Source: Gemmobacter megaterium (GTDB taxonomy: Bacteria > Pseudomonadota > Alphaproteobacteria > Rhodobacterales > Rhodobacteraceae). Taken from it: 64,000 nt of DNA. Below are positions 50,469 through 54,182 of this stretch, in pieces (position 1 is the first letter of the stretch; the number at the start of each line of letters is the position of its first letter). A program made the position numbers and the translations under genes. The notes under the pieces were generated by a model. The model was not told where the DNA came from, ran no database searches, and saw nothing but the letters and a program-made list of their open reading frames with translations. The stretch covers positions 496,001 through 560,000 of the forward strand of contig NZ_FTOT01000001.1 in the NCBI RefSeq assembly GCF_900156815.1, written 5' to 3'.

Positions 50469-52919
50469 TCAGGTGCCGCGCGGTTTGGCGCGCAGCGTGG
50501 GATCGGCCTGCAACGGGTCTTCGGGCCAGGGATGACGAGGATAGCGGCCGCGCATGTCCTTGCGCACATCGGTATAGCTGCCCTGCCAGAACCCCGGCAG
50601 ATCCGACGTCACCGCAATGGGCTTGCCGCCTGGTGACAGCAGCGACAGCTTCAGCGGCGTGCGGCCCGGTCCGACAACAGGATGCGTGGCCTGCCCGAAC
50701 AGCTCTTGCAGGCGCAGTTCCACCTGTGGCGTATCCCCGTCGTAGTCGATCGGAATGCGACGCCCCAGCGGGGTGGTGAAATGCGAGGGGTAAAGCGCGT
50801 CGAGCCGTGCGCAGACTTCCCAGCCCAGATACAGCCTGAACGGCTCCAGCAGATCAAGCGCCCGCAGGTCGGCACGGGTGCGCACCGATGGCAGGGCGGG
50901 CATCAGCCAGTCGGCCGCCGCCTCAAGCAGGCTGGCATCATCAGCGGGGGGGACGTCCTCGCCGGCCTCGGCGGCGGAAAGCGCACGTTTGCGCAGCCGG
51001 GCCGCGGCCCCGTTGAACGGCAGGCCATTGCCCTGTCGCACCTCGTCCCGCAGGCCTTCCAGTGCCGCGGCGGCCATCGCTTCGGGCGGCGGGTCGGGCC
51101 AGATGCGGTCCTCAAGGACAAGCGCGCCCAGACGTTCCTGCCGCCGCGCAACAATGCGTCCCTCGCGCCGCGACCAGTCGCAGATCTCGAGCCATGCGAT
51201 GCGGTCGGCACATAGCGCACGCAGATCGCCTTCGGTCAGTGCCACGGCCTGGCGGATGCCGGCCTCGCGCGCGTCGCCATCCAGATCGGTTGCGACCAGC
51301 AACCGGGCCCCGGCCAGCGGCGTGCCCGGTGCCATGGTCGCGCCTTTTCCGCCCGACAGAACCCATCGCGGTGCCTCGCCCTTGCGGCGCAATCCGATGC
51401 GGTCGGGATAGGCCATGGCAGCCATCGCGCCGGGGCTGAGGGCAGGGCGGTCGGGTGCCATGCGGGCCAGGCGCCTGCCCTCGGCCCGGATGCGTTCCAA
51501 GGCATCGCGATTCACCGCCCAAGGATGCCGATCCGCGTAGGAGGATATATTTTCAAGGGCTTGCAGTCGCAAGCTCAGGTCCGGCGGCGCCCCGATCAGC
51601 GGATCGCGGTCCGCCATCAGCGCCGCAAGCGGCGCCGCGGCGCGGCCCGCGCCCAGCAACATATGGGCAAGTCGGGGATGCAGCGGCAGCGCCGCCATGG
51701 CCCGACCGTGGTCCGTGATCCGGCCCTGGTGCAGCGCGCCCAGATTGGTCAGCAAGGCCCGTGCCTCGGCCAGGGCGCCCGCAGGGGGCGGTGTCAGAAA
51801 GGCCAACCCCTCGTCCGAGCCCCAAAGCGCAAGATCCAACGCAAGACCGGCCAGATCTGCGGTGGCAATTTCGGGCGGTGGAAAGGCGGGCAGGGCGCCC
51901 TCTTCGGCCTTGGCCCACAGACGATAGCAGATGCCGGGGGCCACGCGACCGGCCCGTCCACGGCGCTGCTCCGCCTCGGCCCGGCTGACCCGTTCCGTGA
52001 CCAGCCGCGACATGCCGGACCCCGGATCGAACCGTGCACGGCGAGCACGCCCCGCATCGACCACCACCCGGATATCGGGAATGGTCAGGGAGGTTTCGGC
52101 AATCGACGTGGCCAGAACCACCTTGCGCAGGCCCCGAGATGGCGCAAGCGCCGCACGCTGGGCGCGAAAATCCATTGCACCGTAAAGAGGTTGCACGTCA
52201 CAGCTCACAAGCGGGCCAAGCTGCGCCGCGACACGCCGGATCTCGCCCTCGCCAGGCAAGAAGACCAGAACACCGCCGTCGGTTTCCGCAATCGCCTGCT
52301 GCACCAGTGCCGCGACCTCGCGTTCAAGCCGCGCAGCTGCGGGCAATGGACGCGGCAACCAGCGGGTTTCCACGGGAAAGGCCCGGCCATCCGAGGTGAT
52401 CAACGGGGCATCCCCCATCAGCGCAGCGACCGGCCCGGCATCCAGCGTTGCCGACATCACCAGCACCCACAGATCCGGCCGAAGCGCGGCACGCGCCTCC
52501 AGCACCAAGGCAAGGCCCAGATCGGCATTCAGGCTGCGTTCGTGAAATTCATCGAAGATGACGGCACTTACGCCGGAAAGCTCCGGGTCGGACTGAATCA
52601 TCCGGGTCAGGATGCCTTCGGTCACAACCTCGATCCGTGTCTGGGAGGAGACCCTGGACTCGCCGCGGATCCGGTAGCCGACGCGCTGGCCGACAGCTTC
52701 GCCCAGCGTCTGTGCCATGCGTTCGGCAGCCGCGCGGGCCGCCAGTCGGCGCGGCTCCAGCATCAGGATGCGTCCCTGGACATCCGGCAGCAGCGCCAGC
52801 GGCACCCGAGTTGTCTTGCCGGCACCCGGTGGCGCCTGCAACACCGCGCGGCCCTGACGGCGCAGGGCCTGGCCAAGGTCGTGAAGGCAATCGTCAATCG
52901 GCAGACTGTCGTTCAGCAT
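50469..52919 (-). CDS. hrpB: ATP-dependent helicase HrpB (DEAH-box)
   Basis: 816-aa DExH helicase. Motif I APPGAGKTTRVPLALL (about 29-44), DEFH in VIFDEFHERSLNAD, SAT motif VMSATLD, motif VI EQRRGRAGRVAPG, and the C-terminal HrpB domain with LPEWRK-like segments. RNA or nucleic-acid unwinding role; phenotype mild in E. coli. Start at 52919 (MLNDSLPIDDCLHDLG) gives the family N-terminus; there is no clear Shine-Dalgarno and 52955 is an alternative. The dif-like site lies 87 bp beyond its start. Confidence 0.95.
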   Translation of the reverse strand: MLNDSLPIDDCLHDLGQALRRQGRAVLQAPPGAGKTTRVPLALLPDVQGRILMLEPRRLAARAAAERMAQTLGEAVGQRVGYRIRGESRVSSQTRIEVVTEGILTRMIQSDPELSGVSAVIFDEFHERSLNADLGLALVLEARAALRPDLWVLVMSATLDAGPVAALMGDAPLITSDGRAFPVETRWLPRPLPAAARLEREVAALVQQAIAETDGGVLVFLPGEGEIRRVAAQLGPLVSCDVQPLYGAMDFRAQRAALAPSRGLRKVVLATSIAETSLTIPDIRVVVDAGRARRARFDPGSGMSRLVTERVSRAEAEQRRGRAGRVAPGICYRLWAKAEEGALPAFPPPEIATADLAGLALDLALWGSDEGLAFLTPPPAGALAEARALLTNLGALHQGRITDHGRAMAALPLHPRLAHMLLGAGRAAAPLAALMADRDPLIGAPPDLSLRLQALENISSYADRHPWAVNRDALERIRAEGRRLARMAPDRPALSPGAMAAMAYPDRIGLRRKGEAPRWVLSGGKGATMAPGTPLAGARLLVATDLDGDAREAGIRQAVALTEGDLRALCADRIAWLEICDWSRREGRIVARRQERLGALVLEDRIWPDPPPEAMAAAALEGLRDEVRQGNGLPFNGAAARLRKRALSAAEAGEDVPPADDASLLEAAADWLMPALPSVRTRADLRALDLLEPFRLYLGWEVCARLDALYPSHFTTPLGRRIPIDYDGDTPQVELRLQELFGQATHPVVGPGRTPLKLSLLSPGGKPIAVTSDLPGFWQGSYTDVRKDMRGRYPRHPWPEDPLQADPTLRAKPRGT

Positions 52920-53005
52920 GATGCGGTTATGGCGTGGTCGATCGAAAACCGCCATAGCCCAGAACAGACCGCGCCACGGTCGGATTTCGGCTTCCACAGG
53001 TCATT

Positions 53006-53033
53006 TATTAACATAATACCGATTATGCGAATC
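53006..53033 (-). other. dif: dif-like XerC/XerD recombination site (chromosome dimer resolution)
   Basis: 28 bp on the - strand with the exact dif layout: 11-bp XerC-type arm GATTCGCATAA, 6-bp centre TCGGTA, 11-bp XerD-type arm TTATGTTAATA. E. coli dif, from memory, has the arms GGTGCGCATAA and TTATGTTAAAT with centre TGTATA: the inner CGCATAA and TTATGTTAA are identical. Inner arms form the inverted repeat CATAAT / ATTATG. It lies between divergent-facing hrpB and a 55-aa gene, in AT-richer DNA. KOPS-type octamers switch strand at this point. Confidence 0.85.
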
Positions 53034-53171
53034 CAATTTACCCATTTCTGCACACCCACAGGATTCCGCCCCAGCTTTGGCATTTTGCGGCCTTGCGGTG
53101 TTTTTGTGCCCTGCGGGCCTGGAAACATGCTACAGCCCCTTTGGCAGCACTTCGCTGCCACAGGAGCGCCC

Positions 53172-53339
53172 ATGCAGATGTTTTCTCGAAAGCCTCCGTT
53201 TGACTTGGCCGAGTTTCTTGCCAAGCCAGCCACACCCGCAGAGATCAAACGCGCCGCAGATGCCCGCCGCAGGCATGTCCAGTACATGCAGCGGCTTGAA
53301 GATGCCCGCGAAAGGAGCAGCGCAAAGTCGCAAAGATAG
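53172..53339 (+). CDS. Small basic protein near the dif site (55 aa)
   Basis: Starts MQMFSRKPPFDLAEFLAKPA and continues TPAEIKRAADARRRHVQYMQ with a basic, serine-rich tail. Not recognised. It has a plausible ribosome site AGGAGCGCCC and codons typical of coding DNA, and the region upstream (GTTTTTGTG..) is AT-richer than the flanks. No signal peptide or membrane segment; probably helical and nucleic-acid or protein binding by charge, which is only inference. It starts 138 bp from dif, in the terminus. Confidence 0.45.
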   Translation: MQMFSRKPPFDLAEFLAKPATPAEIKRAADARRRHVQYMQRLEDARERSSAKSQR

Positions 53340-53454
53340 CAAGCGCCCGGCGCGGCTTGTGGCGGAACCGGTCAGCGATCTGTTCCGCCGCGCACGCCTG
53401 CAAGACTGGCCTGAGCCGCCGTGGCACAATATGCCTGCCAGCCGGAATCTTGTG

Positions 53455-54093
53455 TCATTCGCCGGACATTCGGGCGAACAGGCGCAGCGCATGGGCCGGG
53501 TCGCGTGACGCCGCGGGCATGACCGGATCATAGGCCGCCCTGATCACGGCGCCGATCTGCGGGCCAAGCACGGCATCGCTCTGCTCGGTCCGGACCAGAA
53601 CGCCCTGTGCAAGGGCATCATCGCCCCACAGGCAGATCAACCGCACCGCCTGATCCAGTGCCAGCACCTCGGCGGACACCTCTGCAAGGGCTGCATCGAC
53701 GCGGATGAACACAAAGACAGCGCGGATCGCCCCATGTTCGTCAAAGCGGAACATGCGGTACTGGTTCGCCTCTTGCGCCTCCAGCCGGGTCACAAGCGAT
53801 GCCAGCCCGTCGACCAGCCGATCAAGGTTCGGCACCTGCACAAGTTCGGACCAGTCGCGGCAGAAGAACATCATCAGATTCGCGCCAAGCTCTGGGTCGT
53901 GATCCGCGATCTGATGACCGGCCAAGGCCACGACCGCCTCGATGGCGCCCTTGAAGACGGCCAGCGTGGCCTCTTCGACCCCGAAAATTACCGGCACTAT
54001 GGGGCGGCCCCACCGTGCAAACACATACCCTTCGGGCCGGGTGAACAACGCCTCGACCGTTGCGGGGCTGGCTGGGGCGGATGGTTGGCACAT
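53455..54093 (-). CDS. Uncharacterised protein (212 aa)
   Basis: Not recognised as a named family. Starts MCQPSAPASPATVEALFTRP, includes YVFARWGRPIVPVIFGVEEA, GANLMMFFCRDWSELVQVPN and ends PAHALRLFARMSGE. It has a mixed alpha/beta composition with no signal peptide or membrane helices, so probably soluble. ATG at 54093 follows GGAGACCGTC. Divergent from the M48 protease gene with 89 bp between. A conserved unknown of the family is my best guess; no function offered. Confidence 0.75.
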   Translation of the reverse strand: MCQPSAPASPATVEALFTRPEGYVFARWGRPIVPVIFGVEEATLAVFKGAIEAVVALAGHQIADHDPELGANLMMFFCRDWSELVQVPNLDRLVDGLASLVTRLEAQEANQYRMFRFDEHGAIRAVFVFIRVDAALAEVSAEVLALDQAVRLICLWGDDALAQGVLVRTEQSDAVLGPQIGAVIRAAYDPVMPAASRDPAHALRLFARMSGE

Positions 54094-54182
54094 GACGGTC
54101 TCCTTTGGGATGTTTCAACCGCGAGTGCCGCGCCGATGCAAGCGGGTTTGACTTGGCGCCGCCCTGCCCCCATCTTCCCCGC

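Follow-up and report, generated by a model that had tools for sequence, protein, structure and literature searches.

The window, by which we mean the whole 64-kb stretch of DNA analysed here (C27:496001-560000 of a genome of 4,168,088 bases in 45 contigs), carries the helicase gene hrpB on the minus strand and, just upstream of it, a 28-bp sequence with the exact 11-6-11 layout of a dif site (53006-53033, minus strand; C27:549006-549033). dif is a short site found in most bacteria that serves to separate accidentally joined chromosome copies before cell division. The site consists of a predicted XerC-binding arm (GATTCGCATAA, 53023-53033, minus strand), a central region of 6 bp (TCGGTA, 53017-53022, minus strand), and a predicted XerD-binding arm (TTATGTTAATA, 53006-53016, minus strand). 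Compared with the dif sites given in Table 1 of PMC2731167, the XerC arm is the same as that of Pseudomonas aeruginosa PAO1, the XerD arm shares 9 of its 11 letters with E. coli dif (GGTGCGCATAATGTATATTATGTTAAAT), and the centre has the 6 bp that this source reports for all the proteobacterial genomes it covers.

The hrpB gene spans 50469-52997 as its longest open reading frame and scores 883.5 bits with the HrpB model TIGR01970 (over the cut-off, with the alignment beginning at residue 32) besides matching Pfam HrpB_C. The dif site begins 8 bp upstream of this longest frame, which starts at 52997, and by hand count 86 bp upstream of the likelier ATG at 52919. Three further open reading frames beside dif (53172-53339, 53130-53531, and 53455-54093) gave no Pfam match; the first of them, a 55-codon frame on the plus strand between dif and the next gene, gave no NCBIfam match either. 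The site itself is AT-rich, with 8 G+C letters out of 28 in surroundings of about 66% G+C. A preliminary description of the window had placed a dif of 11-6-11 layout at exactly these positions in AT-richer DNA beside hrpB, and had given its inner blocks CGCATAA and TTATGTTAA as identical to those of E. coli dif; our analysis bears out each of these points, the identity of the blocks by comparison with Table 1 of PMC2731167.

Other readings of the same DNA were tried and rejected. A stem-loop is poorly supported, given that the fold is weak (z -1.1) and that 26 of 200 shuffled sequences fold as well. The stretch 52800-53500 contains no promoter-like or terminator-like site, and no Rfam family matches at the site.

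A single dif-like site in the genome

When the window was searched for the 28-mer with up to 3 mismatches, a single match was found, compared with none in 100 shuffled versions. The two inner blocks with their spacing (CGCATAA-N6-TTATGTTAA) likewise matched once at up to 3 mismatches where 0.02 matches were expected. Across the whole genome this pattern has one exact match, against an order-0 expectation of 6e-5, and one match with 3 mismatches, which we regard as noise because the reversed control pattern gives 5 genome matches at that stringency. A relaxed pattern (ATAA-N6-TTATG-NNA) found the dif site only, read on both strands, and its control found nothing; the pattern is not exhaustive, since the site next to hrpB in congener G150 escapes it. 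The scan of all 4,168,088 bases, a check suggested in the preliminary description, therefore gave one dif per genome at the stringencies tested, where very divergent copies would escape the patterns.

The genome also encodes XerC-like, XerD-like, and FtsK genes. The XerC-like gene (C27:221741-222619; 300.9 compared with an NCBIfam equivalog cut-off of 335.15) and the XerD-like gene (C27:725258-726139; 301.7 compared with 329.6) lie on the same 931-kb contig C27 as dif, and each of the two proteins gets a higher score from its own model than from that of the other; the XerD-like protein additionally passes the subfamily model NF001399. An FtsK gamma domain is encoded on contig C24 (92.9 bits, over the cut-off), and the available part of this protein best matches FtsK with 570 bits, under the cut-off of the full-length model. 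In this draft, dnaA is found on contig C19, separate from dif. A third integrase, of phage type, is encoded at C27:591635, about 43 kb to the right of dif. The region C27 ~589000-669000, outside the window, has a lower G+C content (0.59-0.64) and only 2 KOPS in 80 kb, and probably represents an island or prophage that entered the terminus region recently.

KOPS motifs converge on the site

KOPS motifs steer FtsK towards dif, and the motif GGGNAGGG should point to dif from either side. We used KOPS since GC skew proved too weak to place the terminus: it is mostly positive to the left of dif and mostly negative to the right, with exceptions, and over 580 kb its cumulative maximum lies at C27:518960, 30 kb left of dif. 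All polarity counts were made on sequence stretches around the sites and not on the genome-wide KOPS search, which counted 460 forward and 631 reverse motifs (reversed control, 247 and 323). Within 580 kb of C27, the motif occurs 68 times forward and 6 times reverse to the left of dif, and 4 times forward and 74 times reverse to the right (Fisher p = 1.1e-30). The maximum-likelihood position of the switch is a gap of 2,274 bp (C27:547888 to 550162) that contains dif and runs from the last forward KOPS on the left (GGGCAGGG, 51888-51895, plus strand) to the first reverse KOPS on the right (54162-54169, minus strand), both of which point towards dif. The reversed motif, used as a control, gave 17/7 (forward/reverse) left and 20/33 right, with a p value of 0.013 and a peak elsewhere. 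KOPS polarity thus inverts at dif, as is expected of a chromosomal dif, and work with the same motif that includes Paracoccus replicons describes such a switch as a structural hallmark of dif (PMC13342612).

A shared position in the genus and a shared polarity in six relatives

Each of the four other genus genomes examined likewise has, a short distance upstream of hrpB, a dif-like site that is oriented as it is here. Over the 16 arm letters, the sites of G151 (CGTATAA GAAGTA TTATGTTAA) and G152 (CGCATAA TCTGTA TTATGTTAT) have 1 mismatch each, and those of G149 (CGTGTAA TCAGTA TTATGTAAA) and G150 (CTAATAA TTAGTA TTATGTTTA) have 3 mismatches each, so that 3 of the 5 genus genomes, the window's own included, match the pattern at up to 1 mismatch. 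By sequence alone the G149 and G150 sites would be weak candidates, and their identification rests on their place. The five genomes have five different centres (TCGGTA, GAAGTA, TCTGTA, TTAGTA, and TCAGTA). Arms and centre thus vary at a conserved location, which also accounts for the failure of strict patterns in many genomes. Drift of the centre is in itself already known, since the dif centre has been reported to be conserved within species and only weakly between them (PMC2731167). In G151, contig C34 carries another dif-like site that fits the arm consensus no worse than the hrpB-linked one, both having one mismatch.

At family level, an arm match with up to 1 mismatch was found in 56 of 149 genomes (own included), the other 93 having none at that stringency, and in 53 of the 132 genomes of good quality. 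For KOPS polarity we chose six relatives by hand whose candidate lies on a contig of more than 1.6 Mb and read 20 kb to either side; other candidates, among them G009, G057, G018, G075, G120, G127, and G038 and including some that also lie on long contigs, were left out of this reading. All six show a KOPS switch at dif, with forward/reverse counts left and right of the site of 7/0 and 0/12 (G003, main site), 6/1 and 0/5 (G013, main site), 7/0 and 0/8 (G093), 13/0 and 0/6 (G049), 7/0 and 0/10 (G070), and 7/0 and 0/8 (G140). We also searched for dnaA in nine relatives and the own genome. In five of the nine (all except G070, G140, G057, and G018), dnaA and the candidate dif are on one contig of 3.2-4.3 Mb, and dif lies opposite dnaA in each of these measurable cases. 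Calculated by hand as the shorter of the two arcs, expressed as a fraction of the contig with contigs taken as circular, the distance is 0.449 in G003, 0.460 in G049, 0.445 in G093, 0.462 in G013, and 0.419 in G009, i.e., 0.42-0.46 of the contig.

Synteny beyond the genus was examined with nine window proteins as blast queries (E 1e-10) against 165 dif-like loci, most of which had flanks between 1.5 and 20 kb; none of these loci outside the genus had hrpB nearby. Matches to acyl-CoA dehydrogenase (26-33%) and short-chain dehydrogenase (28-31%) in the same search were rejected as synteny evidence and are probably paralogues. An information profile was built from the window, 40 contigs picked by title as probable Rhodobacterales among at least 117 listed matches, and 7 further loci, which together held 44 pattern sites with full flanks, 43 of them distinct. 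The letters fixed by the search pattern are circular in such a profile, so only the drop in the flanks is informative: beyond the 28 bp, the 43 distinct sites resemble each other no more than background.

Secondary dif-like sites and viral contigs

Two of the relatives carry additional dif-like sites. The KOPS counts around those of G003 are 0/6 left and 2/4 right (G003:C1:2165295) and 0/5 left and 0/2 right (G003:C1:2763680), i.e., there is no switch at either, and the one of G013 (G013:C1:388884) has 1/0 left and 0/1 right, two KOPS in all. The G003 site at 2165k abuts a Fic/DOC gene, and no more than about 6 kb away lie genes for a resolvase and for transposases of the Mutator and Tn3 types, surroundings that may be seen as reminiscent of Acinetobacter plasmid dif modules. 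The idea that the secondary sites of G003 and G013 mark low-G+C DNA was rejected (0.52-0.59 compared with 0.53-0.56 around the main sites). An identical dif-like core with the centre TGAAGT (CGCATAATGAAGTTTATGTTAA) was observed in three genera (G072, G081, and G035). G072 carries three copies, two exact and one with a mismatch, and for two of the three the start of a contig is no more than 30 bases away. The core may be a recombination site that is mobile or carried by plasmids.

Among viral contigs, 81 stretches carry a TCNRTA-type dif core. The centres in 80 scanned viral pieces were TCTATA (33), TCGATA (26), TCTGTA (10), and others (11). These contigs probably stem either from phages that integrate through the XerCD of their host or from host DNA assigned to viruses in error.

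Discussion

The structure of the site, its single copy, the convergence of KOPS on it, the presence of XerC-, XerD-, and FtsK-like genes, and its genus-wide position are what we obtained here, and we are almost certain that it is the ordinary dif of the chromosome, i.e., its dimer-resolution site, where XerC and XerD would bind and recombine. The site shares its 28 bp and 11-6-11 organization with the proteobacterial dif sites collected by Carnoy and Roten (2009, PMC2731167) and Kono et al. (2011, PMC3025954), and has in common with them the inner arms CGCATAA and TTATGTTAA, a single copy, and an intergenic location, as well as the KOPS convergence named as a hallmark in PMC13342612. It differs in that its centre TCGGTA is not among the entries of Table 1 of PMC2731167 and in that the XerD arm ends in TA instead of the AT of E. 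coli dif, both being positions that this source reports as variable. The chromosome 1 dif of Rhodobacter sphaeroides (GAGTCGGATAATCTGTATTATGTATTCT, PMC2731167), which presumably comes from the same order as our genome, has the same TC-N-N-TA type of centre and the inner XerD block TTATGT, but in its XerC arm and the outer part of its XerD arm it departs further from E. coli dif than the site described here. In Dinoroseobacter shibae, a probable relative, the chromosomal dif similarly lies in the terminus region, and vesicle DNA peaks at it (PMC7901474), an experimental enrichment in contrast to the purely sequence-based evidence of our study.

On established Xer and FtsK knowledge, the site would act when an odd number of crossovers has joined sister chromosomes into one dimer. 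At the septum, FtsK would translocate DNA along the polarity of the KOPS motifs as far as dif and would there activate XerD. With XerC and XerD bound to both dif copies, XerD would exchange one strand pair and XerC the other, yielding two monomers. The single copy and the sharp KOPS switch support the claim of the preliminary description that the window includes the place of dimer resolution. Its further statement that the site marks the replication terminus holds in the sense of a dimer-resolution site in the terminus region but not of a strict point where forks stop, and we have reworded it in this way because published work finds that replication need not terminate at dif (PMC3025954, PMC13342612).

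The preliminary description had also offered an integrated element, a plasmid, or a chromid as alternatives, all of which we disfavour given the adjoining hrpB, the place shared among congeners, and the even G+C level. Some observations would fit an XerCD-using element: the Rhodobacter capsulatus phage Jorvik inserts at dif-like sites and is believed to employ the XerCD of its host (PMC10589892), the viral stretches described above carry a core of the same type, and extra dif-like sites occur in G003 and G013, one of them beside Fic/DOC, resolvase, and transposase genes. Such phages and the pdif modules of Acinetobacter plasmids have dif-like arms and a published or proposed use of host XerCD in common with the site studied here, but they are mobile, whereas the site here is the only one found and sits where the KOPS polarity of a chromosome changes. 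An attachment site or scar of a phage or pdif-type module is very hard to reconcile with the locus: no second dif-like boundary was found in the genome with the patterns used, the G+C content shows no jump across the site (0.664 left and 0.662 right per 20 kb), hrpB adjoins it directly, the four other congeners have a site at the same place, and the KOPS switch seen here is absent from two of the three secondary sites, the third having just two KOPS.

We rate as equally improbable that the dif belongs to a chromid or megaplasmid instead of the main chromosome. Large extrachromosomal replicons, including those of Paracoccus, do have a dif with a KOPS switch (PMC13342612), a dif is listed for chromosome 2 of R. 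sphaeroides (PMC2731167), and dnaA lies on a different contig in our draft. Yet the site is the sole dif-like one found in the genome, also with the relaxed, non-exhaustive pattern, its 931-kb contig bears the xerC- and xerD-like genes, and the window has purB, an 86%-identical copy of which lies about 12 kb from dif in G093, a relative assembled as a single contig. That the AT-richer intergenic DNA matches dif by chance, finally, has in its favour only that the motif was at first noticed by eye; the negligible expectation of exact matches, the blank result in 100 shuffles, the independent KOPS switch, and the same-place sites of the congeners leave this reading practically no room.

As a chromosomal dif, the site provides a landmark for dimer resolution and for the junction of the replichores that helps to order contigs. 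We suggest a KOPS switch together with a conserved place, and not the consensus alone, as a cheap test for a true dif within the family. Phages that integrate via host XerCD presumably depend on a centre matching their own, and one could for this reason imagine that the dif centre turns over as an escape from them, a scenario that we consider very unlikely and for which the hrpB-linked dif sites of the genus would form a natural test series. The centre TCGGTA of this genome occurs in 1 of the 80 viral pieces, all of which had been preselected for a TCNRTA-type core.
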